42,666 nucleotides of DNA from Alphaproteobacteria bacterium (GTDB lineage Bacteria; Pseudomonadota; Alphaproteobacteria; Puniceispirillales; UBA1172): NCBI GenBank assembly GCA_016778985.1, contig JADHOM010000016.1:1-42666 (forward strand), in the 5' to 3' direction. Below, one piece after another: positions 16,562 to 42,666 of this stretch. The position numbers and the translations under genes are program-made. Each line of letters begins with the position of its first letter. The stretch's first letter is position 1. The notes below the pieces were generated by a model. It did not search any database. It was not told the DNA's origin and saw only the letters and a list, made by a program, of their open reading frames with translations.

Positions 16562-16576
16562 AATGCGCCCTAACCT

Positions 16577-17186: not shown

Positions 17187-17217
17187 GTAAAGGTTTTTTT
17201 ATTGACGATTAGCCCAA

Positions 17218-20781: not shown

Positions 20782-20784
20782 GAT

Positions 20785-22482: not shown

Positions 22483-22652
22483 ACTCAATCCCTCATATAT
22501 AATCTTATCTTTCCCCATGTGGGATGTTTTAACAAGTCATTTCACCGCTCTTTATAATAGCTCACAGACTTAAATAGCAGACTTGCATAACCGACTTGCG
22601 GGGCAACTCAAATTGGCGCATCATGCCTATTATGAGTATGATTAAGGGTACA

Positions 22653-23375: not shown

Positions 23376-23381
23376 TAATTC

Positions 23382-25415: not shown

Positions 25416-26917
25416 TATTTAATCCATGTGGTTTTAAGCGCGGTATATTTATCAAGCGCGTGGAGCGATAAATCGCGCCCATATCCGGATTGCTTAAAGC
25501 CGCCAAACGGCGTCATTGGGCTTAACGCATCAACCGTATTAACAGAAACCGTTCCTGCATGAAGCCGCTTTGAAAGACGATGTGCGCGTGACAGACTGCC
25601 TGTCCAGAGAGAGGCGGCAAGACCATAAATGCTGTCATTAGCCATAGCCAAGGCCTCGTCTTCGCTATCAAATGGAATAACCGATAGGACAGGGCCAAAT
25701 ATTTCTTCTTTAGCGATTAGGCTATCGGGCGGCACATCATTAAATATCGTTGGCTGAACAAAATATCCCTTACCATTGAGTTGCACCGCTTCACCGCCGA
25801 CAACACAATCGGCATAGGTTTTGCCGTCCTCAATCATCGCCATAATGCGCTGATGCTGCTCTTTGCTAACAATCGCCCCCATTTTCGCCGCAGGGTTTAG
25901 CGGATCATCAGGTTGATGGGCATGCGCTTGCGTAATCATGCGGTCGAGAAACTCTTGATGAATTGACCGCTCAACCAACAGCCGTGAATTGGCAGAGCAC
26001 ACCTCACCCTGATTGAAAAAGATACCAAACGCCGCCATTGCTGCGGCGGCATCTAAATCATCCGTATCGGCAAAAATCAGGTTAGGGCTTTTGCCGCCAG
26101 TTTCGAGCCAAACTTGCTTCATATTGGATTGGCCAGCATATTGCTGAAACATTTTTCCAACCGGAGTTGAGCCAGTAAATGCCAGACAATCGACATCATT
26201 ATGAATCCCTAATGCCTTGCCTGCGGTTTCGCCATATCCTGTCACCACATTAAACACACCTTCGGGCAGACCAGCTTCCATAGCTAATTCAGCCAGACGG
26301 AGCGCCGAAAGCGGTGATTGCTCTGCCGGTTTCAAGACAACAGAATTACCTGCCGCTAACGCTGCCGCGGCTTTCCATGTTGCCATATCCAGCGGAAAGT
26401 TCCACGGCACCACTGCACCAACAACGCCAAGCGGTTCTTTGGTGATAAGGGCTAGGTTACCTGCACCAGTCGGCGCAATCTCATCATAGATTTTGTCAAT
26501 AGCCTCAGCATACCATTGAAAAAATGCCGCTGATCCGGGCACATCCACCGCCGCCGCATCTTCCACCAGCTTGCCCATATCCATACTATCAAGGAGCGCT
26601 AGTTCTTCCAGATTATCTCTGATCAGATCAGCGAGTTTGAGCAACACAGCCTTGCGGTTTTGCGGCGTTTCTTGTGACCAGACGCCCTTATCAAAAGCCG
26701 TCCGAGCTGCCATAACTGCACGATCAATATCGGCGCTATCGCCCTCAGCAACCTCAGCCAAGATGGCATTATTAGCAGGGTTCATAGAGGCAAAACATTT
26801 GCCAGAAGCGGCATCCTCAAAGCGGCCATTAATAAAAAGCTGATGCCGCGGCCTTAGCTGGTCAGCCAAGTTCTGCCATTCTTGATAACTATGAAAAGAT
26901 GTAGATGCTCCAGACAT
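25412..26917 (-). CDS. NAD(P)-dependent aldehyde dehydrogenase, PuuC-like
   Basis: Oxidises an aldehyde to a carboxylate in the cytosol. The 501 residues include Asn173 (PWNFP), general base Glu272 (WLETGGKSP) and the nucleophile Cys307 (NQGEVCSANS). The segments WYAEAIDKIYDEIAPTG and FADTDDLDAAAAMAAFGI are close to gamma-glutamyl-gamma-aminobutyraldehyde dehydrogenase PuuC, which acts in putrescine breakdown. The gene is third in the HpaB operon but is only a few kb from the polyamine locus, so it could oxidise an amine-derived aldehyde as well. AGGGGGG precedes the ATG. Confidence 0.9.
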   Translation of the reverse strand: MSGASTSFHSYQEWQNLADQLRPRHQLFINGRFEDAASGKCFASMNPANNAILAEVAEGDSADIDRAVMAARTAFDKGVWSQETPQNRKAVLLKLADLIRDNLEELALLDSMDMGKLVEDAAAVDVPGSAAFFQWYAEAIDKIYDEIAPTGAGNLALITKEPLGVVGAVVPWNFPLDMATWKAAAALAAGNSVVLKPAEQSPLSALRLAELAMEAGLPEGVFNVVTGYGETAGKALGIHNDVDCLAFTGSTPVGKMFQQYAGQSNMKQVWLETGGKSPNLIFADTDDLDAAAAMAAFGIFFNQGEVCSANSRLLVERSIHQEFLDRMITQAHAHQPDDPLNPAAKMGAIVSKEQHQRIMAMIEDGKTYADCVVGGEAVQLNGKGYFVQPTIFNDVPPDSLIAKEEIFGPVLSVIPFDSEDEALAMANDSIYGLAASLWTGSLSRAHRLSKRLHAGTVSVNTVDALSPMTPFGGFKQSGYGRDLSLHALDKYTALKTTWIKY

Positions 26918-26950: not shown

Positions 26951-27448
26951 TCAGGCGATACCCTGAAACCGCCCATAGCTCCGCTTAGAATAAACTAATG
27001 CATCACCTTCTGAAGGGTGATGAATACTAACAACGCCGCCGATAAAGATATAATGTGTTCCAACACGCTCGACTTGATAGAGATTGCAATCAAATGACAC
27101 TAAGGCATCACTTAAGATTGGCACACCGGTTTTTAATTTATGCCAATTAAGATGACTAAACTTACTTTCAGCTTCTGACAGGCGGCCAGCAAAAACATCA
27201 GAAATATGCGACTGATCTGATCGCAGCATGTTCACAGCAAAGGCTTTATTTTCCATAATCGCATCCGCCGCAGAGCTAAGATGATGGATGCAGACAAGCA
27301 AGGTAGGATCATCCATATCCGCAGAAACGGAGGACATCGCAGATACAGTGACACCATGTTGACCGGCCGTGCCGTCTGTTGTCACCACATAGACCGTGGT
27401 TCCTGCTGCCGACATCGCCTTGATAAACTGGTCGCGTATTTCGTCCAT
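26951..27448 (-). CDS. Flavin reductase (HpaC-like)
   Basis: A 165-residue flavin reductase domain protein that would supply reduced flavin to the HpaB-type monooxygenase immediately upstream. Seen: TTVYVVTTDGTAGQHGVTVS at the N-terminus, then SSVSADMDDPTLLVCI, FAVNMLRSDQ (the flavin-binding SxxP-like loop region) and the C-terminal HYIFIGGVV. The length is standard. It lies 46 bases after hpaB and 33 before the aldehyde dehydrogenase. Confidence 0.88.
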   Translation of the reverse strand: MDEIRDQFIKAMSAAGTTVYVVTTDGTAGQHGVTVSAMSSVSADMDDPTLLVCIHHLSSAADAIMENKAFAVNMLRSDQSHISDVFAGRLSEAESKFSHLNWHKLKTGVPILSDALVSFDCNLYQVERVGTHYIFIGGVVSIHHPSEGDALVYSKRSYGRFQGIA

Positions 27449-27494: not shown

Positions 27495-29030
27495 CTATTC
27501 TGCGGCTAAATCTTTGTTGTCATCAAACCATTGTCTGACCGCTCTGTCACCTTTTTTCCCTTCGCTCCCATCAAGCACACGATCGGATAAATCGGCACCT
27601 TCTTTAACAAAGTTAAGCGCGCCATCCCATTCATAATTACGATATACCGCCCCAAGATGCGCGGTTGGCGGGCTTTGCGCGAAGAGCTGAAAGGTCAGCC
27701 GGTGGCCAGCATAATCGGAGTTAAGCAAATCACGCGCATAGGCTAGTAACTTGCGGCGGTCCTCAGCTAGCCATTTATCATTAATGGTGTAAAACTTTTC
27801 CATCCAGGGCCGCGTTGCTTCAGCCTCGAATGAGGCGACATTAGGCGTCACACAAATCTGACCGCCACATAACTCACGCGTCAAATGCATCATCGTTGGC
27901 AGGTTAGACATGGCATGATAACGGCCAGTCATCAACAACGACTGATTAGGCATCAGCAAGCCGGCAGGTGACGTTTCGCCCAAGGCAATAGCCGCCGTCA
28001 AATGCGCGTTAATGCCCTCACGCCAGACCGCAAGTTGCGAAAGCTTTTCCTGAACCGCAGGGATTTTTTCAAGCCCTGTCTGGCGGATATTGAATAACGC
28101 CGTGCCAATCATCTGATCCGCTTGCTTTAATGTCCGCTGAACAAAGGCAAACGCCGAATAGCGATGCAAGGTTGCACGAATAAATGTTGCGGCTTTGGTG
28201 TGGCGATAGAACAGCACATTTTCCCATGGCACAAGGACGTTATCAAAAATGACTAAGGTATCGACCTCATCAAACTTATTCGATAGCGGATAATCACGGT
28301 GATCAGATCGTGGGCAACCGCCGCGCGCACCGGCAAACCCTGTCCGGCAAATAAACTTCAAGTTAGGTGAGTTCAGGTCACAGATAAAGCCAAGCGCATA
28401 ATCCGACAGTTTGCTATCACCCCAATTGGCGATTGTCGGCTTAGTGAAAGCCTGATTAGCATAGGCGGCGGCGGTTTCATATTTGGCGCCTCTAACAACA
28501 ATACCCTCATCGGTTTCTTTAACCACATGGAGCAACATATCAGGGTCTTGATCTTGTGGTGCTAGTGATCGGTCGCCCTTTGGGTCGGTATTGGCCGACA
28601 CATGAAACGGATCATTCTTAAGCACTTTGAAGATATGATTTTCAATATTTTTGGAAAATTGTGGGTCAACTTCGTTTAAAACATCCTGACCATCATAAAG
28701 CGACCACATCTCACCAACGGTTTCATCACCGACACGCGTCACCACGCCGCCGACATCCTCAAGCACAGCATCAGTCGCCCGACGCTTTGCCCACCAGTCA
28801 TCTTGTGTAAAAGGCAGGGCATTGCCAATAGCATTAATCTCACCCTGATCTTCGACTGTCATGACGTCCTTAGTGGCTGGATCATGCGCCATGTCATAAA
28901 TGCGGGCACGAATATCAATTAAGGGTTTGAACATAGGATGCGCCGTGACGTCTTTAACGCGCTGGCCATCCATATAAACCTCACGATTGTCGCGGATGGA
29001 ATCTTTATATTCTTCGCCAGTTCTAATCAT
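27495..29030 (-). CDS. hpaB: 4-hydroxyphenylacetate 3-monooxygenase family oxygenase (HpaB-like)
   Basis: The FADH2-using oxygenase component of a two-component monooxygenase, 511 residues. N-terminal domain: MIRTGEEYKDSIRDNREVYM; middle: TQDDWWAKRRATDAVL and DYPLSNKFDEVDTLVIFDNV; C-terminal: RELCGGQICVTPNVASFE. Known family members ortho-hydroxylate phenols such as 4-hydroxyphenylacetate. No catechol ring-cleavage enzyme is nearby, so the substrate may not be a simple phenol, or the later steps may be elsewhere. GAGGA precedes the ATG. It is the first gene of the four-gene minus-strand operon. Confidence 0.87.
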   Translation of the reverse strand: MIRTGEEYKDSIRDNREVYMDGQRVKDVTAHPMFKPLIDIRARIYDMAHDPATKDVMTVEDQGEINAIGNALPFTQDDWWAKRRATDAVLEDVGGVVTRVGDETVGEMWSLYDGQDVLNEVDPQFSKNIENHIFKVLKNDPFHVSANTDPKGDRSLAPQDQDPDMLLHVVKETDEGIVVRGAKYETAAAYANQAFTKPTIANWGDSKLSDYALGFICDLNSPNLKFICRTGFAGARGGCPRSDHRDYPLSNKFDEVDTLVIFDNVLVPWENVLFYRHTKAATFIRATLHRYSAFAFVQRTLKQADQMIGTALFNIRQTGLEKIPAVQEKLSQLAVWREGINAHLTAAIALGETSPAGLLMPNQSLLMTGRYHAMSNLPTMMHLTRELCGGQICVTPNVASFEAEATRPWMEKFYTINDKWLAEDRRKLLAYARDLLNSDYAGHRLTFQLFAQSPPTAHLGAVYRNYEWDGALNFVKEGADLSDRVLDGSEGKKGDRAVRQWFDDNKDLAAE

Positions 29031-29275: not shown

Positions 29276-29369
29276 ATCACGATCTGCTGATTAATCCGAC
29301 ATAGGGTTCATGAAAAGGACTAACAAAAGACTAAATAATAGACTAAACGAAAGTATATGGGGAATAGTG

Positions 29370-30527
29370 ATGGATAAAGCCAAGACAGCCAATAACAACA
29401 AAACACATGCCATTGACATCTTATCTGTTACGAAAATCTATCCGCATCGGACGCATCCGGTGACCGCACTAAACGACATCAGTTTTGCTATTGAGGATAA
29501 TGAGTTTTTTACCCTTTTGGGGCCGTCGGGTTGCGGCAAAACTACATTGCTCCGCATGATTGGCGGTTTTGAAGGGATTACCAAAGGCCAGATACAGCTC
29601 TATGGCGAAGATATCAGCACCTTACAGCCGAACCAACGGCCGATTAATACGGTGTTTCAGCAATATGCCCTGTTTCCGCATCTGACGGTTTTTGAAAATG
29701 TGGCTTTTGGGCTGAAACGCTTAGGCCGCGACCGCGCCTTTATTCAAAAGCAAACTGAGGCCATGCTTGAGCTTATCCGAATGGCAGACTTCGCGCATCG
29801 CAAACCTAATCAGCTCTCCGGCGGCCAGCAGCAACGTGTTGCCTTGGCACGCGCCCTCGCCCCTCAGCCCAAAGTCTTATTGCTGGATGAGCCACTATCA
29901 GCACTTGATCTTAAATTGCGGCAAGCCATGCGCGAAGAATTAAAAGATATTCAGAAGAAAACGGGGATCACCTTTATTTTTGTGACCCATGATCAAGAAG
30001 AAGCCTTGACCATGTCCGACCGCATTGCTGTCATGAGCAATGGTGAGGTTCAGCAGATTGGCACGGCAACAGATATCTATGATCATCCGATTAATCATTT
30101 TGTCGCAACCTTTATTGGCGAGGCCAATATCCTTAGTGCCAGCGTTACTAAAATAAATAAAAATAGCATCATGGCGACGCTTGCGGCGGGTGGCGGCAGT
30201 GTTGAGGTTGCAACTGACCTAGCCATGACAAAGGGCCAGAAAATCAGCCTTATGATCAGACCGGAACGTGTCAAGATTGGCAAAGCTAGCCGCGCTAAAT
30301 CGGCGCTTTCTGGTGTTGTTCAGTCGATTTCCTACCTTGGCACCGACACCCAGCTTCATGTCAGCCTTAATGCCAGACAGGAAACCGAGCTTAATACTGG
30401 CCAAAGTAATGGCGAGATAATTATTGCCAGACAACAAAACCATGGTGATGGCGGCTCACCGTTTCATAAAGGGGATGCGGTTAGCGTCACCATTGCTGAA
30501 AACGCACTTCGAATTTTACAAGACTAA
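29370..30527 (+). CDS. potA: Spermidine/putrescine ABC transporter ATP-binding protein (PotA-like)
   Basis: The ATPase of a polyamine importer, 385 residues from the ATG at 29370. I prefer this start because of the GGGGA ribosome site; the frame is open to 29310. Walker A GPSGCGKTTLL, Q-loop FQQYALFPHLTVFENV, signature LSGGQQQRVALAR, Walker B VLLLDEPLSALD and switch His VTHDQEE are all intact. The C-terminal 130 residues form the TOBE domain (MIRPERVKIG). It heads an operon with both permeases and the binding protein, which supports the polyamine assignment over other spermidine/iron-type ATPases. Confidence 0.92.
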   Translation: MDKAKTANNNKTHAIDILSVTKIYPHRTHPVTALNDISFAIEDNEFFTLLGPSGCGKTTLLRMIGGFEGITKGQIQLYGEDISTLQPNQRPINTVFQQYALFPHLTVFENVAFGLKRLGRDRAFIQKQTEAMLELIRMADFAHRKPNQLSGGQQQRVALARALAPQPKVLLLDEPLSALDLKLRQAMREELKDIQKKTGITFIFVTHDQEEALTMSDRIAVMSNGEVQQIGTATDIYDHPINHFVATFIGEANILSASVTKINKNSIMATLAAGGGSVEVATDLAMTKGQKISLMIRPERVKIGKASRAKSALSGVVQSISYLGTDTQLHVSLNARQETELNTGQSNGEIIIARQQNHGDGGSPFHKGDAVSVTIAENALRILQD

Positions 30528-30546
30528 TAGGAGCATAAGTAGAATA

Positions 30547-31488
30547 ATGGCAGGCATTATCAATCAAACCAGCAAGACGACAGATGGCGCGCAGACATCT
30601 ATTGTTGATGGCAAGCAACATATTCTACTGCTGCCAGCATGGTTGATCATTGGCGTATTGTTGGTCATCCCGGTAATTCTGATGCTTGTCTATTCCTTCT
30701 TGACCCAAGATTTTCGTGGTGGCGTAATATGGGAGTTTTCGCTAGAAGCCTATGATCAGTTTTTCTTTGATCGCGGGCTCTTTGGGGATGAGCCGCCAAG
30801 CATTGAGTGGACATATATCGGTATTTTCTGGCGGTCATTCCTGCAAGCGCTTTTTGCCATGATCTTTTGCTTTCTTATTGGCTTTCCGACAGCCTATTTC
30901 ATTGCTACACGAGCACCACAATCACGGTCATTCTGGCTCTTTCTAGTGACAATACCATATTGGGTAAATCTGCTAATCCGGACAGTTTCAATGAAGTTTC
31001 TGATCCGGGATAACGGCCCTATTAACACATGGCTGTTATCGGGTGGCATCATTGATGAGCCTATCAGCATGATCAACACCAATTTTGCTATCCAAATAGG
31101 CTTATTTTACTCATACCTGCCATTTATGGTTCTGCCCATTTATGCCTCGATAGAACGCTATAATTTTGCACTATCAGAAGCCGCGGCAGATTTGTATTCA
31201 AGTCGCTGGGTGACGCTTTTTAAGATTGTGATACCATCGGTAAAGCCCGGTATTATTGCCGGCTGTATATTGGTTTTCATCCCTAGCCTTGGGGCATTTC
31301 TTGCGCCTGACTTACTGGGCGGGGCTAAGAATTTCATGATCGGTTCACTGGTCGAAGAGCAATTTAAAGGCCAGGCTGGTGACTGGCCATTTGGCGCCGC
31401 CGTCTCAATGATCCTATTGTCGATCATTATGGTTATCTTGCTGTTTTATGCGCGCGCCCAGATCAGACAAAATGATGGAGGGCATTAA
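30547..31488 (+). CDS. potB: Polyamine ABC transporter permease (PotB-like)
   Basis: An inner-membrane permease of 313 residues from the ATG at 30547, with six predicted membrane segments (first: [20 protein letters not shown]). The EAA loop that contacts the ATPase is [20 protein letters not shown]. The frame extends upstream into potA, but 30547 lies 19 bases after the potA stop and has AGGAG upstream. The potC ATG follows its stop after a single base. Confidence 0.9.
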
Positions 31489-31489
31489 T

Positions 31490-32302
31490 ATGGCCAATAC
31501 CTCAGAACGTATCCGCTGGTATCCAGGCTTTAGAGAGATTGCTCTCATCTGCTTAGTGATCCTCTATGCGCCGCTGATTATCGTTATGATTTATTCATTT
31601 AATAACTCACCTTCTATTACTATTTGGAAAGGCTTTAGCTTTGTTTGGTATGAAGAGGTGTTTTTTGGCCCCGAGTCGGCGAAGTTCAAACAGGCGACAG
31701 TGAACTCCCTTATCATTGCCGTACTTGCCGCCATCACATCAACCACAATCGCTACCGCATCAGCTTTAGCTATGATACGTGGCCGCCGCTTTCGTGGACA
31801 GGCAATGACATTTGGGCTGATTAACTTACCGCTAATGGTGCCTGAAATTGTGACAGCAGTAGCAACGCTGATCTTTTTTGCCTCAATCGGTTTTGATCGT
31901 GGGATATTAAGTATTCTGCTTGCCCATATTGTCTTTTGCATCCCATTCGCCTATCTGCCGATAGCTGCGCGTCTGCAAGGTATTGCGAATGTCTATGAAC
32001 AAGTGGCGCGTGATCTTTATGCCACCCCCGGTCAAGCCTTTCGGTTAGTGTTGTTGCCGATGATGCTGCCAGGAATTCTATCAGGGTTCTTGCTGGCTTT
32101 TATTATTTCCCTTGATGATTTTATTATTACTAATTTTGTCAAAGGCGCAGGAGTTGAGACGCTACCAACAGCCATATTTGGCGCTATCAAACAGGGCATA
32201 AAGCCGAATATCATGGCAATCTCTACGCTGATGTTGGCGGCATCATTTATTCTTGTCTCAATTTCGTATTTCATCAGCCGCATAGGCAATCACGATAGAT
32301 AG
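31490..32302 (+). CDS. potC: Polyamine ABC transporter permease (PotC-like)
   Basis: The second permease, 270 residues from the ATG at 31490 (GGAGGG at good spacing; the open frame before it lies in potB). The first segment is [19 protein letters not shown], and the EAA-type loop reads [38 protein letters not shown] near the C-terminus is typical of PotC. Together with potB it forms the transmembrane channel. Confidence 0.92.
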
Positions 32303-32392: not shown

Positions 32393-33427
32393 ATGCGTAA
32401 GTTTACAACGATGCTAGGAGCAGTAGCCCTTAGCATGTCTTTTGCACAGAGTGCAATGGCAGAAAAGCTAACGATATATCATTGGTTTGAGTATATCCCA
32501 CAAGAATTGCTGAATAAGTTTACCGCCGAAACAGGTATCGAAGTTGTCATGGATACCTATGATTCTAACGAAGCCTTGCTCGCCAACCTGAAAGCCACAG
32601 GCATGGGCAATTATGATGTTGCTGTACCAGGTGATTATATGGTCAATATCATGCGTGATGAGGGGATGCTTGATACCTTTACGCCATCTGAGCTAAGCAA
32701 CTTTAGTAATATTCAAGACCAGTGGCTGAATGTCAGCTTTGATATGGGTCGCCAGAACTCCGTTCCTTATCAGTGGGGTTCAACCAGTTTCATGGTTGAC
32801 CGTGAAGTCTATTCAGGGGACATCAGAACCGCTGATATCATCTTCAATCCACCTGCCGAATTAAAAGGCAAGATCAATATTCTGGACACCGCAGGGGAAA
32901 CGCTGGCCTTTGCTTCACTATATATGGGTATTCCACAATGCAGCAACGACAGAAGCGAGCTCAAAAAGCTGAGCGCTATGCTTCAGGAAGCAAAGGTAAA
33001 CTGGGCATCATTTAATTCAGATGGCGCCAAGGATGTTTTGGCATCTGGTGATGCCGCCGCCGGTATGATCTGGAATGGATTTGGTGCTAAAGCCAGAGCT
33101 GAACGGGCATCGCTCGAATATTCCTATCCAAAAGAAGGCTATCTTGTTTGGGCAGATAGTGTTGTTCTGTTAAAAGATGCGCCAAACCGTGATGCTGCAT
33201 TGAAGTTCATGGATTTCTTGCTTGAGCCAGAAAATGCTGCTGCTGTAACTAATTACGCGCGTTACACAGCTGGCGTTAAAGGCGTGGAAGAGTTTCTTGA
33301 CGCTGAACTAGTCACTTCACCAGAAAACAACCCACCAGCAGATGCTCCTGCTGGGACATTTGTTGAAGTCTGCGCTCCAGAAACCCAAGCGCTTTATGAT
33401 GCGATCTGGACACAGCTGAAAAAATAA
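32393..33427 (+). CDS. potD: Periplasmic spermidine/putrescine-binding protein (PotD-like)
   Basis: The receptor of the importer, 344 residues with a signal peptide cut after about residue 23 (SFAQSAMA). The mature start KLTIYHWFEYIP and GNYDVAVPGDYMVNIM match the PotD/PotF family, in which an acidic and aromatic pocket binds diamines. ALKFMDFLLEPENAAAVTNY is the usual C-terminal segment. A strong AGGAGG ribosome site precedes the ATG, and a stable hairpin follows the stop, both fitting higher expression than the permeases. Confidence 0.92.
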   Translation: MRKFTTMLGAVALSMSFAQSAMAEKLTIYHWFEYIPQELLNKFTAETGIEVVMDTYDSNEALLANLKATGMGNYDVAVPGDYMVNIMRDEGMLDTFTPSELSNFSNIQDQWLNVSFDMGRQNSVPYQWGSTSFMVDREVYSGDIRTADIIFNPPAELKGKINILDTAGETLAFASLYMGIPQCSNDRSELKKLSAMLQEAKVNWASFNSDGAKDVLASGDAAAGMIWNGFGAKARAERASLEYSYPKEGYLVWADSVVLLKDAPNRDAALKFMDFLLEPENAAAVTNYARYTAGVKGVEEFLDAELVTSPENNPPADAPAGTFVEVCAPETQALYDAIWTQLKK

Positions 33428-33436
33428 TCATAAGCC

Positions 33437-33460
33437 GGCCACGTCTCATCAGATGTGGCC
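33437..33460 (+). terminator. Stable hairpin after potD
   Basis: A 10-bp stem with one G-U pair, GGCCACGTCT (33437-33446) and AGATGTGGCC (33451-33460), closed by a CATC tetraloop, 9 bases after the potD stop. No good U-run follows, so partial termination or protection of the potD mRNA 3' end is more likely than full termination; the amidase and later genes continue in the same direction. Confidence 0.6.
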
Positions 33461-33487
33461 GCTTTGCTCCCGTTGATTGTATCGAAC

Positions 33488-34933
33488 ATGCAAAAATCCT
33501 ATCATCACTTATCAGGGATTGAGATTAGAGACGGCATCTCAAACGGTACATTTGATCCATGTCAGATTATGGAACACTGCCTATCCCGATGTGATGCGGT
33601 TCAACAAAAGCTTAACCCTTTCACAGCTATTTATCATTCCGATGCTATGGCCGCCGCCGCGATGGTGGCAGAGCGTAAAGCAGATGGTCTGCCCATGCGG
33701 CCAATGGAAGGCATCCCTGTTGCTATTAAAGAGTTCACCCCAATTAAGGGCAAGAGCACAACCCGCGGATCGGCCGCGCTAGAGCATTACATAGCAGACA
33801 GACAGCCCGTTATTGTTCAGAGATTGCTTGATGCTGGTGCGATTATTGTTGCGCGCACAACCACGCCTGAGTTTGCTCATTCTAGTTTTACCCGCTCACC
33901 TCTATTTGGTCATACGCTAAACCCATTTGATCCATCCCGAACATCCGGTGGATCATCTGGTGGCTCTGGCGTTGCTGTTGCGACAGGCTGTGTTCCTCTA
34001 GCTGAAGGCACGGATATGGGTGGGTCAGTTCGCATTCCAGCGGCGTTTTGCGGTGTTCTTGGTCTCAAGCCTAGCCATGGCCGCATCCCTATGGATATTC
34101 TATCAACTGTATTTGATACCATCTCTCATTTTGGCCCACTCGCCCGCACCGTCGATGATATGACGCTATTCATGACTTGCGTTGAAGGCGCTGATGATGC
34201 CGATATCATGAGCCAGATAGCACCCATTCCACTAGATGATGTTAGCCATGATCTTGGTAATGATATTAACGGATTACGGATCGCGGCAAGTGTTGATCTA
34301 GGCTGCTTTCATGTTGATGCTGACGTCGCTGCCAATTTTGCCAAAAGCCTGGATACTTTGGCCAAGGCTGGCGCCATTGTCACCCCTGTTGAGATTGCCT
34401 TTACCGCCGATATGGTTGATGCGTGGTATGATTACTGGTGCGTTTATCTGGCCGCCGCCGTAGAAGATATGCTGCCCGAATATCGAGATGCGATGGACCC
34501 TGATTTTCTTGAGCTTGTGGATAGAGGATTAAGCATAAGCGCGGTTGCCTTTCGCCGTCTTGATGAGGTACGGACAACCCAATGGCATGCCTTTACCGCG
34601 GCGATAACTGATCATGATATGCTAGCTTGCCCAACCATGGCCTTGCCTGCACCGGCCTTTCAAGACAAAGAACTTAACTACACCAGCACCGATGCAGATG
34701 GTAAACTGCATGCACTGGATATGACCTGCTTGTTTAATTCGATTGGTCAATGTCCGGCGCTGAGTGTGCCTAGCGGCTTAACCGCATCTGGACTACCAAC
34801 AGCAATTCAGCTCATTGGGCGGCGATTTGATGACGCAACGCCAATGCGCGTTGCCCGCAGCTTAGAGCAAAACCAACCGTGGATTGATCACTTAAATGCC
34901 TGTGATCATGTATTATTAAGTATGGAGGAATAG
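33488..34933 (+). CDS. Amidase signature family hydrolase
   Basis: A 481-residue amidase with a Ser-cisSer-Lys triad: Lys in VAIKEFTPIKGKSTTRGS, cis-Ser in TSGGSSGGSG and the nucleophile Ser in TDMGGSVRIPA, followed by LGLKPSHGRIP. The frame opens at a GTG (33455) that lies inside the potD hairpin, so the ATG at 33488 is preferred, though it lacks a clear ribosome site. It sits between the polyamine importer and an amine dehydrogenase, so it may cleave an acylated amine or an amide made from one, but the family is too broad for a substrate call. Confidence 0.87.
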   Translation: MQKSYHHLSGIEIRDGISNGTFDPCQIMEHCLSRCDAVQQKLNPFTAIYHSDAMAAAAMVAERKADGLPMRPMEGIPVAIKEFTPIKGKSTTRGSAALEHYIADRQPVIVQRLLDAGAIIVARTTTPEFAHSSFTRSPLFGHTLNPFDPSRTSGGSSGGSGVAVATGCVPLAEGTDMGGSVRIPAAFCGVLGLKPSHGRIPMDILSTVFDTISHFGPLARTVDDMTLFMTCVEGADDADIMSQIAPIPLDDVSHDLGNDINGLRIAASVDLGCFHVDADVAANFAKSLDTLAKAGAIVTPVEIAFTADMVDAWYDYWCVYLAAAVEDMLPEYRDAMDPDFLELVDRGLSISAVAFRRLDEVRTTQWHAFTAAITDHDMLACPTMALPAPAFQDKELNYTSTDADGKLHALDMTCLFNSIGQCPALSVPSGLTASGLPTAIQLIGRRFDDATPMRVARSLEQNQPWIDHLNACDHVLLSMEE

Positions 34934-34935: not shown

Positions 34936-37050
34936 ATGCCACTTGATCCAACATCTAAACAGAAAAGCCGATATGATATCCTGTTTGAGCCATTAGCCAT
35001 TGGCCCGGTGACGGCTAAAAACCGATTTTACCAAGTGCCGCATTGTAACGGTGGCGGCTATCGTGATCCGTCAGCTGTTGCTGAAATGCGCCGTGTTAAG
35101 GCTGAAGGCGGCTGGGGTGTTGTCTTTACCGAACAGGTGGAAATACATCAGACAAGCGAAATATCGCCATTTATCGAATTACGGCTGTGGGATGATAAAG
35201 ACATGCCGATGCTGGCAAAAATGGCAGATGCTATCCATAGCCATGATGCGCTTGCCGGGATTGAGCTAACCTATTCAGGTATTAACGGCCCTAATCTCTA
35301 TTCGAAAGAGGTGCCATTAGCGCCAACCGCTGGCCCTATCCTGACCTTTAGCTCTGATCCGGTTAATGCCCGGGCCATGGATAAAGATGATATTCGTGAT
35401 GTTCGCCGATGGTATGTTAACGCCGCCAAAAGATCACAGGCCTGTGGCTATGATTTAATTTGTCTTTATGGCGCGCATGGGTTTGGAGTTATCCAGCATT
35501 TTCTGTCACGGACAACCAATAAGCGCAATGATGAATATGGCGGCAGTCTGGAAAACCGCAGCCGCTTCATGAAAGAATTGGTTGAAGATATCCGTGATGC
35601 TGTCGGTGATACAATGGGCATTACCATTCGCTTATCGCTCGATGAAGCCTTTGATGAGCTGAGCTTTTCAAATAGTGAAGTGCGCGAATGTATAGACATG
35701 CATAGTGATTTGCCTGATCTTTGGGATTTGGCGCATGGTACATGGGAAGATTGTTCTGCTACCTCACGCTTCAAAGACGAAGCCGCGCAAGAAGCCTTGA
35801 TCAGCGGGATTAAGGATTTGACGTCACGTCCAGTAGTTGGGGTTGGCCGCTTCACCTCACCCGATACTATGGTCAGACAGATCAAATCAGGTGTTATCGA
35901 TTTCATTGGCGCGGCGCGTCCATCTATTGCCGATCCATTTCTGCCCAAGAAAGTTGCTGAAAATCGCTTTGAAGATATTCGAGAATGTATTGGCTGTAAT
36001 ATGTGCGTGACAGGCGATATGACCATGTCAATCTCACGCTGCACCCAAAACCCAAGCTTCATGGAAGAATGGCGCAAAGGCTGGCATCCTGAGCATAAGC
36101 CAGCCAAAGGCAAGAGCCAGTCTGTTTTGATTGTTGGCTCTGGCCCTGCTGGACTTGAGGCAGCAAGAATGCTTGGCGGGCGTGGCTATGATGTGGCGGT
36201 GGCGGAGGCATCATCTGATCTCGGCGGCAGGGTGGCGAAGGAACGATTGCTGCCTAACCTATCAGCATGGGGGCGCGTCATGGATTATCGGCTAGGCCAG
36301 ATTGAGCCTATGGCAAATGTGTCGATCTATCGCGAAAGCCACCTGACCGCTGATGATGTTCTAGGATTTGGCTTTGAGCATGTCTGTATAGCGACAGGCG
36401 CGCAGTGGCGGCGTGATGGAACAGCACGCTTTGTGCTTATTCCGGTCAACATTGATGCCGATATGCCAGTCTTTACCCCTGATGATATTATGTCAGGACA
36501 GATGCCGTCGGGGCATGTCGTTATTTATGATGATGATCATTATTATATGGGCGGGGTATTGGCGGAAAAACTGCGCCAAAATGGCTGCACCGTGACGCTA
36601 GTCACGCCGGCGACTATGGTATCAGAATGGACGGTAAACACGCTTGAGCAGGGCTTCATCCAAAAGGGGCTATTGGATATGGGGGTTGCGATTATAACGA
36701 CCCATAAAATCGCCGCTGTCGGGCGTGATCATGTTGATGTCTCATGCGTCTATTCAGGCCAGATCAAATCGGTTGCCGCTGATGCCGTGCTGATGGTGAC
36801 CGCCAGAGACGGCAATGACGGGTTATGGCAAGAGTTGAAACAAAAACAAGATGAATGGCAAGGCGCTGGCATTTCCTCAATCAAGATCATTGGAGATGCC
36901 GCCGCCCCTGCCCCGATTGCATGGGCAACCTATGCTGGTCATTCCTATGCTATGAATATGGATGAACCAGCGGCAGGGGATGAGCCTGTCTTCCGGCGTG
37001 AGGTTGCGGGGCTAGACCCAACACCAATTTCGAGCATAAGAAAGGCATAA
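34936..37050 (+). CDS. FMN/[4Fe-4S] amine dehydrogenase of the trimethylamine dehydrogenase family, histamine dehydrogenase-like
   Basis: A 704-residue TMADH-family enzyme: a TIM barrel with FMN (1-340), an iron-sulfur segment and two nucleotide-binding domains (VLIVGSGPAGLEAARML from about 395). Seen: flavinylation Cys37 (QVPHC), active-site Tyr178-Gly-Ala-His181, Arg232, and [4Fe-4S] Cys351/354/357/369. In TMADH the substrate cage is Tyr60, Trp264 and Trp355; the aligned residues here are Gln67, Trp263 and Asp361. Gln-Trp-Asp is the cage I recall from histamine dehydrogenase (Gln65, Trp267, Asp358), so a primary amine such as histamine, agmatine or putrescine is predicted instead of trimethylamine. 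Perfect GGAGG at the ATG; the amidase stop lies 2 bases upstream. Automatic labels such as N-methylproline demethylase are possible alternatives. Confidence 0.85.
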   Translation: MPLDPTSKQKSRYDILFEPLAIGPVTAKNRFYQVPHCNGGGYRDPSAVAEMRRVKAEGGWGVVFTEQVEIHQTSEISPFIELRLWDDKDMPMLAKMADAIHSHDALAGIELTYSGINGPNLYSKEVPLAPTAGPILTFSSDPVNARAMDKDDIRDVRRWYVNAAKRSQACGYDLICLYGAHGFGVIQHFLSRTTNKRNDEYGGSLENRSRFMKELVEDIRDAVGDTMGITIRLSLDEAFDELSFSNSEVRECIDMHSDLPDLWDLAHGTWEDCSATSRFKDEAAQEALISGIKDLTSRPVVGVGRFTSPDTMVRQIKSGVIDFIGAARPSIADPFLPKKVAENRFEDIRECIGCNMCVTGDMTMSISRCTQNPSFMEEWRKGWHPEHKPAKGKSQSVLIVGSGPAGLEAARMLGGRGYDVAVAEASSDLGGRVAKERLLPNLSAWGRVMDYRLGQIEPMANVSIYRESHLTADDVLGFGFEHVCIATGAQWRRDGTARFVLIPVNIDADMPVFTPDDIMSGQMPSGHVVIYDDDHYYMGGVLAEKLRQNGCTVTLVTPATMVSEWTVNTLEQGFIQKGLLDMGVAIITTHKIAAVGRDHVDVSCVYSGQIKSVAADAVLMVTARDGNDGLWQELKQKQDEWQGAGISSIKIIGDAAAPAPIAWATYAGHSYAMNMDEPAAGDEPVFRREVAGLDPTPISSIRKA

Positions 37051-37053: not shown

Positions 37054-38085
37054 ATGGATATTATTTATACCGATGATCATCGCTTGCGGGCAGCAAAAAC
37101 TGAACTTTATGGGGGTGAGCTGGTGCCGCCATTTGAGTGTCCTGAACGCATGGATTTTATCCTGGAAGCCTTAAAAGAAAGACCGATTGGCAGTATCATA
37201 GCCCCTAATCACTATGGCACTGATATCATCAACCAAGTGCATGATGCGGATTATTTGTCGTTTCTGGATACCGCTTGGGATGAGTGGCAGGCCGCAGGCA
37301 TGAAGGGTGAGCCTATCCCCACTGTCTGGCCATCACGATCCATGCCAGCACCGCATATCCCGGCATTTATTGATGGCAAGATTGGCTATTACGCGCTGTC
37401 TAGTGAAACCTCAATCGCCAAAGGCACGATTGAGGCCGTCCATGCATCCGCGCAAGTCGCGCTGACGGGCGCTGATCATATTGCATCGGGCAAAGCGCAT
37501 CACATGTTTTCGCTATGCCGGCCACCCGGTCATCATGCGTCACGCGATCAATATGGCGGCTATTGCTTTATTAATAATGCGGCGATAGCAGCACAATATA
37601 TGCGTCAGAACGGCGCTCAAAAAGTTGCTATTCTTGATGTTGATTTTCATCATGGTAATGGCACGCAAGCGATTTTTTATGATCGTGATGATGTGATGTT
37701 TTTATCACTACATGGCGACCCTAGCGATGCCTTTCCTCATTTCCTGGGCTATGCTGATGAAACCGGATATGGGCAAGGCGAAGGTTATAATATCAATTAT
37801 CCGATGCCGCCAAACACCCCTTATGCGGCGTGGGTTGAGGCGTTGGATCAGGCGATTGCATCCATCCGCGCCTATGCCCCGGATAGTTTGATCGTGTCAT
37901 TTGGTGCAGATACTTATGAGAATGATCCCATTAGTTTTTTCAAACTAAAGAGCGATGATTATTTTGATATGGGGGCGCGCATCAATGCTCTTGGTCTGCC
38001 GACGCTGACGGTTATGGAGGGCGGCTATGCGGTCAAGGATATTGGCATAAACACGGTTAATTTCCTTATTGGATTGGAACGCTAA
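37054..38085 (+). CDS. Acetylpolyamine amidohydrolase (histone deacetylase family)
   Basis: A zinc hydrolase of 343 residues that removes acetyl groups from acetylated polyamines such as N-acetylputrescine. Seen: the His160-His161 charge relay in RPPGHHASRDQYGG, zinc ligands Asp197 and His199 (LDVDFHHGNG), Asp286 (SFGADTYENDP) and the transition-state Tyr325 (MEGGYAV). The N-terminal half has the long loop typical of bacterial APAH enzymes. Its ATG follows the dehydrogenase stop by 3 bases, and its own stop is one base before the AguB-like gene, so translation is coupled. The polyamine neighbours support this function over other HDAC-family roles. Confidence 0.9.
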   Translation: MDIIYTDDHRLRAAKTELYGGELVPPFECPERMDFILEALKERPIGSIIAPNHYGTDIINQVHDADYLSFLDTAWDEWQAAGMKGEPIPTVWPSRSMPAPHIPAFIDGKIGYYALSSETSIAKGTIEAVHASAQVALTGADHIASGKAHHMFSLCRPPGHHASRDQYGGYCFINNAAIAAQYMRQNGAQKVAILDVDFHHGNGTQAIFYDRDDVMFLSLHGDPSDAFPHFLGYADETGYGQGEGYNINYPMPPNTPYAAWVEALDQAIASIRAYAPDSLIVSFGADTYENDPISFFKLKSDDYFDMGARINALGLPTLTVMEGGYAVKDIGINTVNFLIGLER

Positions 38086-38086
38086 A

Positions 38087-38941
38087 ATGCCCCGACTTGC
38101 TATCACACAGATGCCATGTGGCTGGAATGTTGAGGATAATATCAATCAGGCTGAGGTGCTGGTTCGGCAGGCAGCAGATCAAGGCGCGAATATTATTTTG
38201 CTGCAAGAGCTATTTGCCACGGTTTATTTCTGCCCGGAGCAGAAAAAAGACTATTTCTCGTATGCTCATGAGGTCGATAGCCATCCATTTTTGCCAAGAT
38301 TTAGGGCGCTTGCAAAAGAATGTGGTGTTGTCCTACCCATTAGTTTTTTTGAGAAAAGCAATAACGCCTATTTCAATTCCGTAATGATGATCGACGCTGA
38401 TGGAAGCGATATGGGGCTTTACCGGAAAACCCATTTACCGCAAGGCCCTGGCTATGAAGAAAAGTTTTATTTTAATCCCGGCGATTTGGGCTTTCGCGTC
38501 TGGGATACGGCATTTGGCCGGATCGGTGTGGCGATATGCTGGGATCAATGGTTCCCGGAAGCCGCCCGTATCATGGCGCTTAAAGGCGCTGATATTTTGC
38601 TTTATCCGACGGCTATTGGCTCCGAGCCGGGTGATCCATCACTTGATTCAAGCGGCCATTGGCAGCGCGTGATGCAAGGCCATGCCGCCGCCAATATGGT
38701 CACCCTGGCGGCAAGTAACCGAATTGGCAATGAGAAGATTGGCACCATCAATATGTCATTTTATGGCCAGTCATTTATCGCTGGTCATACCGGCGCATTA
38801 ATAGCCGAATGTCATGACGGCGTTAATCAGATTGCGGCCAGCGATATTGATATTGATGCCATGCGGGCGGAACGCGCAAGCTGGGGATTATTTAGAGATA
38901 GACGGCCAGAGAAATATCAGGACATAATGTCCTTATCTTAA
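38087..38941 (+). CDS. aguB: N-carbamoylputrescine amidase (nitrilase superfamily)
   Basis: Converts N-carbamoylputrescine to putrescine, CO2 and ammonia. From the ATG at 38087 it has 284 residues, the family norm. Catalytic triad: Glu41 (LLQELFATVYFC), Lys114 (YRKTHLP) and Cys151 (AICWDQWFPEAAR). The stretch PTAIGSEPGDPSLDSSGHW is characteristic of AguB. Its usual partner, agmatine deiminase AguA, is not in the window; agmatinase, which bypasses both, is nearby on the other strand. Its stop codon is the first unit of a 13-bp tandem repeat. Confidence 0.9.
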   Translation: MPRLAITQMPCGWNVEDNINQAEVLVRQAADQGANIILLQELFATVYFCPEQKKDYFSYAHEVDSHPFLPRFRALAKECGVVLPISFFEKSNNAYFNSVMMIDADGSDMGLYRKTHLPQGPGYEEKFYFNPGDLGFRVWDTAFGRIGVAICWDQWFPEAARIMALKGADILLYPTAIGSEPGDPSLDSSGHWQRVMQGHAAANMVTLAASNRIGNEKIGTINMSFYGQSFIAGHTGALIAECHDGVNQIAASDIDIDAMRAERASWGLFRDRRPEKYQDIMSLS

Positions 38942-39015: not shown

Positions 39016-40419
39016 ATGAAAAATATTATTGTCATCATATCTGATGAGCATCGCCGCGATGCCATGGGTTGCATGGGGCATGATATTGTCAAAACACCAC
39101 ATCTCGATCAACTGGCGAATGACGGCACGTTGTTCAAACGCGGCTACACCGCCTCACCCATGTGTGTGCCAACAAGGGCGGCACTGGCGACCGGAACTTA
39201 TGTTCACCAGAACCGCTATTGGGATAGCGCGACCCCCTATGATGGTCAGCAGATCAGCTGGATGCATATGCTTCGCAGCCAAGGATATGACACGACATCA
39301 ATTGGCAAACTGCATTTTCAGGCTGGCGTGGATCACGGCTTTAGCAAAGAAATTAAGCCTATGCATGTTCATGGAAAAGGCTGGCTAGTTGGATTAATCC
39401 GTGATGAATTACCTGACTATCAAGGCGCCGCAGAATTAGCAACTGAGGTTGGCAGTGGGGAGAACAGTTACACCAATTATGACCTTAGCATCACATCAGC
39501 CGCCGAAACATGGCTAGCTGAACCAGCGCGGCATGATGTGCCTTTTGCCGGATTTATATCTTTAGTCAGCCCACATTATCCGCTTATTGCGCCGGATGAA
39601 TATTATCGCTTGTATGATCCTGATCAGATGCCTGTGCCAGAACCCTTCACGCATGATCATGCCGAAGTTCAGAATATGGCAGGTTTTTTTAATTATCATG
39701 ATCATTTTGACGCTAAGCGCGCCCAGCAAGCTATCGCGTCATATTACGGCTTAACCAGTTTTATGGATGCTTGCGTTGGCCGAATTTTAGCCGCCATTGA
39801 TGCCGCCGGTTTGCGCGACGATACGCTGATTATTTATACATCTGATCATGGTGAGTTGCTTGGTGATCACGGGTTATGGACAAAGCAGTTTATGTTTGAA
39901 GCCTCCGCAGGGATACCTATTATCATATCAGGGCAAGATATCCCACAAGCCAAAATCAGCGATAGCGGCGTCCATTTACTTGATATTCCAGCCACTATTC
40001 TTAAGGCCGCTGGCATCACAAAACCACCTGAATGGCCAGGCACTGATCTTGTGCAACTTGCCCAAGCAGGCAGTGATGATCTCACGCGGCCATGTTTTAG
40101 TGAGTATCACGATGGCGGCTCAACAACAGGCTCATTTATGGTGGCGTGGGAGCAATGGAAACTGATCTGGTATGCTGGCATGTCGCCATTGCTATTTGAT
40201 CTGAGCAATGATCCTGATGAGCGGCATGACCTGTCCGATAATCCCGCATATGCGCATATCTTAGCGCAAGGAAAATCGCATTTATGGAATATTTGCGATC
40301 CTGAAAAAGTCTCACAATTAGCGCTCAGCGATCAAAAGCAGAAAATCGCACAAATGGGCGGCGTTGATGCCTGCATTAACAGCTTTCAGTTTAATGCAAC
40401 GCCAATCCCAGAGCTCTGA
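39016..40419 (+). CDS. Sulfatase family protein (formylglycine type)
   Basis: A 467-residue member of the alkaline phosphatase/sulfatase superfamily. The modification motif C-x-P-x-R is Cys50-Val-Pro-Thr-Arg54, followed by AALATG, so Cys50 would be converted to formylglycine by a maturase not in the window. Metal residues appear in IIVIISDEHRRDAMGC and in IIYTSDHGELLGDHGLWTK. No signal peptide is visible, so it probably works in the cytosol, as choline sulfatase does. Sequence distance and the neighbours leave choline-O-sulfate, another sulfate ester or a phosphonate/phosphate diester open. It has no good ribosome site because the upstream repeat abuts the ATG. Confidence 0.82.
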   Translation: MKNIIVIISDEHRRDAMGCMGHDIVKTPHLDQLANDGTLFKRGYTASPMCVPTRAALATGTYVHQNRYWDSATPYDGQQISWMHMLRSQGYDTTSIGKLHFQAGVDHGFSKEIKPMHVHGKGWLVGLIRDELPDYQGAAELATEVGSGENSYTNYDLSITSAAETWLAEPARHDVPFAGFISLVSPHYPLIAPDEYYRLYDPDQMPVPEPFTHDHAEVQNMAGFFNYHDHFDAKRAQQAIASYYGLTSFMDACVGRILAAIDAAGLRDDTLIIYTSDHGELLGDHGLWTKQFMFEASAGIPIIISGQDIPQAKISDSGVHLLDIPATILKAAGITKPPEWPGTDLVQLAQAGSDDLTRPCFSEYHDGGSTTGSFMVAWEQWKLIWYAGMSPLLFDLSNDPDERHDLSDNPAYAHILAQGKSHLWNICDPEKVSQLALSDQKQKIAQMGGVDACINSFQFNATPIPEL

Positions 40420-40435: not shown

Positions 40436-41407
40436 TTATACTTTGCCGACAATATTTTCCTTGGCGCCAGCCTTTGCCGCCATCACACAAAGCCAATCAT
40501 GGGCAATATTTGCCGCCGCCATCGCGGTGATATCCGCATGATCATAGGCTGGCGATACCTCAACCAAATCCATGCCAATCATATTCAATGGAGTCAAACC
40601 ACGGATCAGCTCAAGCGCTTGCCATGACGCCAGCCCGCCCGGAACAGGGGTTCCCGTCCCCGGAGCAAAAGCCGGATCAAGGCAATCAATATCAAAACTA
40701 ATATAAGCCGGATGATCACCGACCCTTTCCATGATCGCATCGAGTGTTGCCGCAATGCCATTGCGATGCACCCACGGGCTCGTCAAAATCTCAAACCCAT
40801 GATCAGATTGGTTCCATGTCCGCAAACCAACCTGAATAGACCGCGATGGATCAATAGCGCCTTCTTGATAGCCATGCAGGAACATAGACCCATGATTTAG
40901 CGTTGAGCCGCCATCATCCCAAGTATCGCAATGAGCATCAAATTGCACCAATGCGACCGGCCCATATTTTTCAGCATGCGCCCGAATAAGCGGCAAAGCT
41001 ACAAAATGATCACCGCCAAAGGTTAGCATTTTTGAGCCAGCCGCGATAATGCCCCGGGCGTGATTTGTGATCGTCTCAGGGATAGATTTTGGATCATGCG
41101 GATCAAGCGCACAATCACCATAGTCAACGACAGCAAGCGTATCAAAGGGATCAAAGCCAAATGGAAAGGCAGTTAGACTAGCCAATTCCGTTGACGCCGC
41201 CCGAATAGCACGCGGGCCAAAGCGGGTTCCCGGACGGTTCGTCACCGCTCCATCAAATGGAATACCGCTAATGGTGATATCCACATCTTTAAGATCACGA
41301 CTATATTTTCGGCGCAAAAAACTTAACGCGCCGGCATAAGTCATCTCATGTTTAGTGCCTTTGATATTTTGCTTTAGAAACGCCTGATCAGAATCGACAT
41401 AATCCAT
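40436..41407 (-). CDS. speB: Agmatinase (ureohydrolase, SpeB-like)
   Basis: Hydrolyses agmatine to putrescine and urea with two manganese ions. From the ATG at 41407 (GGGGGA ribosome site; the frame is open to a TTG at 41419) it has 323 residues. Metal ligands: His134 (FGGDHFVALPL), Asp157, His159 and Asp161 (FDAHCDTWDDGG), Asp239 and Asp241 (SFDIDCLDPAFAPGTGTP). The blocks are near those of E. coli SpeB. Guanidinobutyrase is an alternative in the same family. It converges with the sulfatase gene and lies downstream of the aminotransferase, so agmatine would flow to putrescine and on to transamination. Confidence 0.88.
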   Translation of the reverse strand: MDYVDSDQAFLKQNIKGTKHEMTYAGALSFLRRKYSRDLKDVDITISGIPFDGAVTNRPGTRFGPRAIRAASTELASLTAFPFGFDPFDTLAVVDYGDCALDPHDPKSIPETITNHARGIIAAGSKMLTFGGDHFVALPLIRAHAEKYGPVALVQFDAHCDTWDDGGSTLNHGSMFLHGYQEGAIDPSRSIQVGLRTWNQSDHGFEILTSPWVHRNGIAATLDAIMERVGDHPAYISFDIDCLDPAFAPGTGTPVPGGLASWQALELIRGLTPLNMIGMDLVEVSPAYDHADITAMAAANIAHDWLCVMAAKAGAKENIVGKV

Positions 41408-41458
41408 GCTTTCCCCCAAAATTACGATTTAACGTGTTGATTTATCAGAGGCTCCCCT

Positions 41459-42666
41459 TCATGAAAGGTTTAGGGTATCCATTGCCGCATCAAGAGCTTT
41501 TCGCAAGATTGCCAGCGTTTCATCAATATCCGCCCGCTCATAGGTTAATGGCGGTGATAAGATCATCCCATCACGTACTGCTCTGATCATCATACCCATG
41601 CTAATCGCGTGATCACGAACAACAACCGCCGCATGACCTTGCTTGGCAAAATGCCGAGGCCCTTTATTGTCAGGCCCAGATTTATTTTCCACCAGTTCAA
41701 CCGCACCTAACAAACCGAAACTTCTGGCTTCACCAACCATTGGATGATCAGCCAGCGTTTGTATAGCTTCGGCCAGATAAGGGCCGGTGTCATTTCTGAC
41801 CTTTTCAATAAGCCCCTCATCTTCGATCAGTTTGAGGTTAGCCAGCGCGACTGCCGCCGCTACTGGATGCCCTGAATAGGTAAAGCCATGATAAAACTCA
41901 CCGCCATCAGAGATCAGCTTTTCTGCCACCCTTTCACCTACCAGAACCGCCGACATCGGCTGATAGCCTGAGGTCAGGCCTTTCGCTGTTGCCATCAGAT
42001 CAGGCTTTAGGTTCATCGTTTGGCTAGCAAACCATTCCCCTGTGCGGCCATAACCGGTGATAACCTCATCAGCAACAAAGAGAATATCATGACGGCGGCA
42101 AATCGCTTGAATACGATCAAAATAGCCTTTCGGAGGGATAATCACGCCACCTGCCCCTTGAATAGGTTCAGCAATAAATGCCGCCACATGATCAGCCCCT
42201 AGCTCTAGTATTTTATCTTCGAGCCAGCCTGCGGAGACTTCGGCGAATGTATCTTCGTCCATATTGCCCTGATAGAGAAAGCCATATGGCGGCTTGATAT
42301 GCTCAAAATCAGGCAGGCGGCAGGCCTGATCATGCATACCGCTCATCCCGCCCATACTTGCTGAGACCATAGTACTGCCATGATAGCCATATTCGCGGCT
42401 GATAATTTTTTGTTTCTGTGGCTTGCCTTCGAGGGCCCAGTAATGCCTGATCATGCGGACAATCGTATCATTAGCTTCGGAGCCTGAATTAGCATAAAAG
42501 ACATGGCTAATGCCATCGGGGGCAATATCAATCAGACGCTGAGATAATTGTGCCGCTGGCGTATTACTGGTTTTGAAAAACGTGTTGTAATAGGGCAGTT
42601 TGTTGAGCTGTTTGGTCGCCGCATCAATCAGCTCTTGGCGGCCATAACCCACATTCACACACCATA
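41459..42666 (-). CDS. spuC: Class III aminotransferase, putrescine--pyruvate (SpuC)-like, 5' end outside window
   Basis: A PLP-dependent omega-aminotransferase; the frame is open to the right edge, reading WCVNVGYGRQEL, so about 45-55 N-terminal residues are missing. Seen: FYANSGSEANDTIVRMIRHY (phosphate-binding), the DEVITGYGRTGEWF segment with the PLP Asp, and the PLP lysine in ATAKGLTSGYQP, followed by EFYHGFTYSGHPVAAAVAL. These blocks are close to SpuC-type putrescine:pyruvate aminotransferases. Beta-alanine or taurine transaminases are close relatives. Location 50 bases upstream of the agmatinase gene on the same strand supports a putrescine role. A DoeD-type diaminobutyrate function cannot be fully excluded. 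Confidence 0.88.
   Translation of the reverse strand, partial: WCVNVGYGRQELIDAATKQLNKLPYYNTFFKTSNTPAAQLSQRLIDIAPDGISHVFYANSGSEANDTIVRMIRHYWALEGKPQKQKIISREYGYHGSTMVSASMGGMSGMHDQACRLPDFEHIKPPYGFLYQGNMDEDTFAEVSAGWLEDKILELGADHVAAFIAEPIQGAGGVIIPPKGYFDRIQAICRRHDILFVADEVITGYGRTGEWFASQTMNLKPDLMATAKGLTSGYQPMSAVLVGERVAEKLISDGGEFYHGFTYSGHPVAAAVALANLKLIEDEGLIEKVRNDTGPYLAEAIQTLADHPMVGEARSFGLLGAVELVENKSGPDNKGPRHFAKQGHAAVVVRDHAISMGMMIRAVRDGMILSPPLTYERADIDETLAILRKALDAAMDTLNLS

Follow-up and report, generated by a model that had tools for sequence, protein, structure and literature searches.

The use of histamine dehydrogenase (HDH) in biosensors is well known. The active site of the HDH of Rhizobium sp. 4-9 (6de6; EC 1.4.9.1) comprises Gln60, Ile69, Phe72, Glu74, Asn110, Tyr171, His174, Phe176, Arg225, Trp263, Asp265, and Asp354 (PMC10180351). 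Substitutions of Phe72 and Asn110 changed the histamine/agmatine ratio of this enzyme, whose rates with agmatine and 1,3-diaminopropane are 10% and 13%, respectively, of that with histamine (PMC10180351). For the HDH of Nocardioides (Pimelobacter) simplex (3k30), the Km values for histamine, agmatine, and putrescine are printed as 31, 37, and 1280 mM, respectively (PMC10180351), where mM appears to be a printing error for micromolar. Another amine-oxidizing FMN/4Fe-4S relative, Pno (6-hydroxypseudooxynicotine oxidase) of Agrobacterium tumefaciens S33, belongs to a nicotine pathway and was reported to be 46-48% identical to HDHs (PMC5500553). No paper on an "agmatine dehydrogenase" was found among open-access papers.

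In Pseudomonas putida U and P. aeruginosa PAO1, the hinFLHG operon leads from imidazole-4-acetate to aspartate; HinF is an FAD monooxygenase (EC 1.14.13.5), HinL an enamine deaminase, HinH an amidase or hypothetical protein, and HinG is described either as an amidase (EC 3.5.1.8) or as a "peptidic bond hydrolase" (PMC8231116, PMC6467879). Among open-access papers, none was found that links HDH to the Hin pathway, and none was found on DUF1028. We describe herein a stretch of alphaproteobacterial DNA of 42,666 nucleotides (contig JADHOM010000016.1; hereafter the window), in which an HDH gene is accompanied by counterparts of several hin genes.

The HDH gene (34936-37050, forward strand) has an intact frame with an ATG at 34936 and a stop codon at 37048-37050 (coding 34936-37047), and encodes 704 residues of the 6-S-Cys-FMN/[4Fe-4S]/ADP type. 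When compared with solved structures by phmmer, the protein scored 1077 bits against 6de6, 825 against 3k30, 666 against 6l6j, and 480 against trimethylamine dehydrogenase (TMADH; 1djn). In a MAFFT alignment of five proteins, it was 66.8% identical to the Rhizobium HDH over 686 aligned residues, 54.9% to the Nocardioides HDH, 47.0% to 6l6j, and 38.4% to TMADH. The alignment spans the whole length, with TMADH as claimed in a first-pass annotation and with both HDHs. HDH-like proteins were then drawn from 80 genome-contig loci, 81 related genomes, 385 alphaproteobacterial genomes, and plasmids. In a tree built with FastTree, with TMADH as the root (a single program, with local support values), the window protein fell into a clade of 95 that includes 6de6 (support 1.0); the Nocardioides HDH stood next to this Rhizobium-type clade (support 0.98), and 6l6j and TMADH lay outside. 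The first-pass annotation had regarded a grouping with TMADH as counting against its assignment; the protein instead belongs to the HDH clade, apart from TMADH. While a demethylase of methylamines or N-methyl amino acids, of the TMADH/DgcA kind, would come from the same superfamily, this position in the tree, away from both TMADH and 6l6j, and the presence of Q67 where TMADH has Y60 leave such a function with a negligible probability. A model of the window HDH built with AlphaFold2 from 12 close orthologues was poor (mean pLDDT 60, pTM 0.46); a crystal structure 67% identical to the protein exists. The same genome encodes a second, distant (28%) member of the TMADH superfamily (G000:C17:40516-42222).

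The pocket of the window HDH is made up of Q67, I76, F79, E81, N117, Y178, H181, F183, R232, W270, D272, C273, and D361. When 7 is added to the Rhizobium numbering of PMC10180351, all 12 of the active-site residues named there are identical in the window HDH, with F79 and N117 standing for the Phe72 and Asn110 whose substitution altered the substrate ratio. Conservation extends to the flavinylation and catalytic set (C37, Y178, H181, and D272), the FMN arginine (R232), and all four FeS cysteines (C351/C354/C357/C369), and the cofactor residues had been read correctly in the first-pass annotation (Cys37, Tyr178, His181, Arg232, and four FeS cysteines). With TMADH, the protein shares the flavinylated Cys, the Tyr-His pair, the FeS cysteines, and a cage Trp, but the aromatic cage Tyr60/Trp264/Trp355 is not reproduced; Q67 takes the place of Y60, and D361 lies in the W355 region. 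That annotation had named Gln67, Trp263, and Asp361 as three cage residues changed from TMADH. Gln67 and Asp361 hold, and they align with Q65 and D358 of the Nocardioides HDH. The Trp does not: the aligned residue is W270, which matches W264 of TMADH, W267 of the Nocardioides HDH, and W266 in the PDB numbering of the Rhizobium HDH, and "Trp263" is the Rhizobium enzyme's own numbering (PMC10180351). Since TMADH also has this Trp, only two cage residues differ, not three. The Nocardioides residues I74, F77, E79, N115, and W267 are conserved in the window HDH as well, whereas its Y181 is replaced by F183 and its catalytic-loop D270 by C273, the Asp being one position earlier. The Rhizobium-type clade, the Rhizobium sp. 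4-9 HDH included, has this unusual Asp-Cys (D272-C273 in the window HDH) where the Nocardioides HDH and TMADH have x-Asp, such that the catalytic-triad Asp appears to be shifted by one residue across the clade.

The Gln/Trp/Asp trio, said earlier to occur in HDH, is indeed present in all 94 close orthologues (identity at least 63.9%, 6de6 included), but 11 of 51 paralogues share it, and thus by itself it is not diagnostic. The full pocket (Q67, I76, F or Y79, E81, and N117, with W270 and D361) was found in 94/94 close orthologues and 4/51 paralogues. Variation among the 94 was confined to F/Y at position 79, D/N/E at 272, and a single H at 183, with Cys at 273; below 63.9% identity, the pocket varies. 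The correction to W270 matters for annotation, because the trio alone would mislabel many paralogues. As judged by identity, tree position, and complete conservation of the active site, the assignment of the window protein as a Rhizobium-type HDH is strongly supported, and the earlier description of an HDH-type flavin/FeS amine dehydrogenase is sustained. The protein adds a member to an established family, from another organism and another operon than the Rhizobium sp. 4-9 enzyme.

Upstream of HDH on the same strand lie a Pot-type ABC importer, with an ATPase (29310-30527; above the TIGR01187 cut-off), a PotB-like permease (30424-31488), a PotC-like permease (31448-32302), and a PotD-like substrate-binding protein (32393-33427), and an amidase-signature hydrolase (33455-34933; PF01425), whose stop codon abuts the HDH start (TAGTGATG). 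An HDAC-fold amidohydrolase of the acetylpolyamine amidohydrolase kind (37054-38085, forward; PF00850) begins 3 nt after HDH and is followed by an AguB-like member of the N-carbamoylputrescine amidase family (38069-38941, forward; TIGR03381, 443.5 bits against a cut-off of 410). On the reverse strand, an agmatinase-family ureohydrolase (40436-41419; above the NF002564 and TIGR01230 cut-offs) and, near the contig end, a class III aminotransferase (41459-42658; above the NF005682 cut-off) may have a separate polyamine function. The first-pass annotation placed HDH in a polyamine operon, and the importer, amidohydrolase, AguB-family, and agmatinase genes are all where it saw them; genes farther upstream that point to a histamine pathway escaped it.

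If HDH acted mainly on polyamines (agmatine, putrescine, or 1,3-diaminopropane), it would yield 4-guanidinobutyraldehyde or 4-aminobutyraldehyde, to be processed by an aldehyde dehydrogenase and a ureohydrolase. Such a route would account for the importer, AguB-family, HDAC-fold, agmatinase, and aminotransferase genes of the locus; moreover, HDH is again accompanied by aphA and aguB in distant loci (e.g., L098, L108, and L205), and HDHs oxidize agmatine (PMC10180351). However, agmatine deiminase (AguA; PF04371), which would supply AguB, was absent from a search of the window's own genome and was found in 5 of 14 controls, which weakens the agmatine reading. The window HDH has the pocket of the enzyme that is more specific for histamine, and agmatine is only a side substrate (about 10%) of the closest characterized HDH, as it is likely to be of the window HDH. 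A polyamine role also leaves unexplained the RidA, DUF1028, FAD monooxygenase, and M20 genes that stand beside HDH in most genera and are missing at paralogue loci. We therefore consider it unlikely.

Divergent from the importer, on the reverse strand, are genes for the oxygenase of an HpaB-family two-component flavin monooxygenase (27495-29030; PF11794/PF03241), its presumed partner, an HpaC/RutF-type flavin reductase (26951-27448), an aldehyde dehydrogenase (25412-26917), whose homologues beside HDH in other loci are mostly 64-77% identical to it, and a LysR regulator (24336-25415). The best solved relatives of the latter, 6m5f and 3fzv, labeled "probable transcriptional regulator", lead the next by about 60 bits. 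We take both to be P. aeruginosa HinK (PA0218), the imidazoleacetate-responsive LysR regulator of the Hin pathway, and the window LysR can accordingly be called HinK-like. About 23 kb from HDH is a forward-strand trio consisting of a RidA-family protein (9778-10206; TIGR00004 match; 60% identical to the RidA proteins of other HDH loci), a Rieske oxygenase alpha subunit (10215-11345; 45% identical), which occurs with RidA/DUF1028 in this group of bacteria, and the single DUF1028 match of the genome (11375-12052; PF06267, 202.5 bits; 50% identical). About 12 kb of other genes separate this trio from the LysR, HpaB, and HDH genes; in many other genera, the hin-like genes and HDH are grouped in one locus. 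An M20 deacylase gene in the window (7247-8416, forward; 40%) was considered as the HinG counterpart and downgraded to a paralogue on finding a 58% homologue at the end of contig C17, outside the window (G000:C17:56227-57369).

The genes that accompany HDH elsewhere were counted by tblastn gene mapping at 60 HDH loci whose 8-kb flanks were complete. LysR was found beside HDH in 51 loci, FAD monooxygenase, RidA, and DUF1028 in 49 each, M20 in 46, an aldehyde dehydrogenase (at least 50% identical) in 32, and a Pot importer in about 29; the AguB family was found in 7, the HDAC fold in 5, and agmatinase in 1. RidA and DUF1028 adjoin HDH together in 49 of the 60. The genes that travel with HDH are thus, for the most part, of another kind than polyamine genes. 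Many of the loci come from two groups, Mesorhizobium (linkage in 23 of 25 loci) and Rhodobacterales, such that the counts are not independent and shared ancestry inflates the totals. For loci 11 kb or longer, RidA and DUF1028 were nearby for 57 of 86 pocket-bearing genes versus none of 44 without the pocket. The one protein as low as 52% identity that retains this linkage (L215) also has the HDH pocket. About 20 genera of Rhodobacterales show the linkage again, as do Geminicoccus and some gammaproteobacterial bins. In Shinella (L117), where the protein is sister to 6de6, the order is LysR-ALDH-HDH-potABCD-RidA-DUF1028-argE. Most SAR116 relatives do not have their hin-like genes next to HDH. 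A PLP-dependent decarboxylase gene directly follows HDH in five Rhodobacteraceae loci (L064, L066, L072, L078, and L087), and could produce an amine that HDH oxidizes; its identification as histidine decarboxylase was dropped, the best NCBIfam match being diaminobutyrate decarboxylase, far below its cut-off.

The order monooxygenase-RidA-DUF1028-M20 also exists apart from HDH, in Burkholderia and Mycolicibacterium, and Acetobacter has the same genes in another order. The Burkholderia order, FMO-RidA-DUF1028-ArgE, in which the FAD monooxygenase is present, equals hinF-L-H-G; the matching of HinH and HinG to DUF1028 and M20 follows gene order and the product names in the literature rather than the Pseudomonas sequences. 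By family and order, counterparts of hinL (RidA), hinH (DUF1028), and hinD (aldehyde dehydrogenase) are present in the window and that of hinG (M20, 58%) on contig C17 of the genome, and a LysR counterpart is likewise shared with the Hin pathway. The Hin pathway starts with the aminotransferase HinC, whereas the window has HDH; it uses the permease HinA, whereas the window has a Pot ABC importer; and it uses HinF, whereas no homologue of this FAD monooxygenase was found in the window's own genome, which has HpaBC, plus the Rieske oxygenase, instead.

The distribution of HpaB was compared in 81 related genomes. Of the 13 HDH genomes, 10 have HpaB, compared with 4 of the remaining 68 (p about 1e-7), and DUF1028 accompanies it in 13 of 14 cases. 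While HpaB occurs in 14 genomes and a close HinF-like monooxygenase in 6, plus one fragment, the two never overlap, a count from which distant homologues of 33-37%, one of them in an HpaB genome (G045), were left out. Exactly one of the two is present in 12 of the 13 HDH genomes. The expectation that HDH genomes lacking HpaB carry the HinF-like monooxygenase was tested and holds for G010 and G019, and neither gene was found in G011, which is 88% complete in 380 contigs. The two genes also share a position: in G073 and G079, a distance of 130-139 bp separates the monooxygenase from DUF1028, and HpaB adjoins RidA-Rieske-DUF1028-M20 in G016 (L255) and RidA-DUF1028 in G007 (L256). In L026, L073, and L205, HpaB accompanies RidA and DUF1028 without a monooxygenase; four loci outside SAR116 (L054, L079, L084, and L085) contain both genes. 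The window HpaB is 62-82% identical to HpaB of hin-like loci outside its genus. On the grounds of this mutually exclusive distribution and shared position, an oxygenase unrelated to HinF seems to have taken over the usual ring-hydroxylating step. That HpaBC, possibly with the Rieske oxygenase, is an unrecognized imidazole-4-acetate oxygenase replacing HinF, in a SAR116-type histamine-to-aspartate pathway started by HDH and fed by Pot, is a proposal to which we give an even chance. The Rieske alpha subunit recurs in the RidA-DUF1028 module, whether the FAD monooxygenase is there or not (L255, L257, L073, and L082).

HpaBC might instead be an ordinary 4-hydroxyphenylacetate hydroxylase in a route for tyramine-like arylethylamines, as the HpaB/HpaC fold adjoins an aldehyde dehydrogenase resembling phenylacetaldehyde dehydrogenases. 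The window HpaB, however, falls below all curated HpaB equivalog cut-offs (216.6 versus 480.2 bits) and travels with RidA/DUF1028, and the ring-cleavage enzyme HpaD_Fe was not found in a search whose control was weak. Such a route appears very improbable.

In this marine bacterium of the SAR116 type, a true HDH beside most of a known histamine-to-aspartate pathway probably starts the use of histamine rather than of polyamines. Histamine is thus the part of the earlier proposal (agmatine, putrescine, or histamine) that stands; the polyamine pathway gives way, with conserved neighbors that are Hin counterparts. We regard it as quite probable that the window gene is a Rhizobium-type HDH that starts histamine breakdown, with a Hin-type lower pathway in which HpaBC serves for HinF. 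Histamine or related amines would be taken up by the Pot-type importer, and the amidase and HDAC-fold amidohydrolase, perhaps together with the AguB-family protein, may free histamine from N-acyl forms. HDH would oxidize histamine at the 6-S-cysteinyl-FMN to an imine and on to imidazole acetaldehyde and ammonia, with electrons passing via the [4Fe-4S] cluster to an acceptor such as ETF, as suggested by the homology of the active site. The divergent aldehyde dehydrogenase, in the putative role of HinD, would give imidazole-4-acetate, which the HinK-like LysR may sense. HpaB/HpaC would oxidize the imidazole ring in place of HinF, and RidA (HinL), DUF1028 (HinH), and the M20 deacylase (HinG) would open and trim the product to aspartate, an assignment that draws on family, order, and the published annotation of Pseudomonas hinFLHG. 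The Rieske oxygenase is also part of the set.

In L205, potABCD-aphA-aguB-M20-HDH-DUF1028-RidA-LysR-hpaC-hpaB are joined within 13 kb, so the hydrolases may share the same function. The coexistence of histamine and polyamine genes, in SAR116 and in L205, together with the known dual activity of HDHs (PMC10180351), would also fit a broad biogenic-amine locus in which HDH takes histamine and agmatine alike through one shared uptake system. Most HDH loci outside SAR116, however, are hin-like and without agmatinase (1/60) or AguB (7/60), and we consider a locus of this kind improbable. Arranged as proposed, the genes would make up a new version of the known histamine pathway. The neighborhoods place HDH in the physiology of many Alphaproteobacteria and make the use of histamine probable in an abundant marine group as well, and they predict an HpaBC-type imidazoleacetate oxygenase.

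Between the RidA/DUF1028 and HDH modules, the window contains a separate catabolic cluster (14419-24323) with an arylmalonate decarboxylase-like racemase, a TRAP transporter, a D-amino-acid dehydrogenase-like protein, a muconate-cycloisomerase-like enolase, a ThDP enzyme, a member of the Asp/Glu racemase family, and a protein of 313 aa that has no Pfam match. A sulfatase gene (39016-40419; choline-sulfatase/arylsulfatase-like, below cut-offs) lies between the AguB-family and agmatinase genes, a position it occupies only in the nearest relatives (L021, L023, L101, and L102). Near the HinG-like M20 gene on contig C17 is a cupin protein (L271:5939-6688), which gives the impression of a DMSP-lyase-type enzyme.
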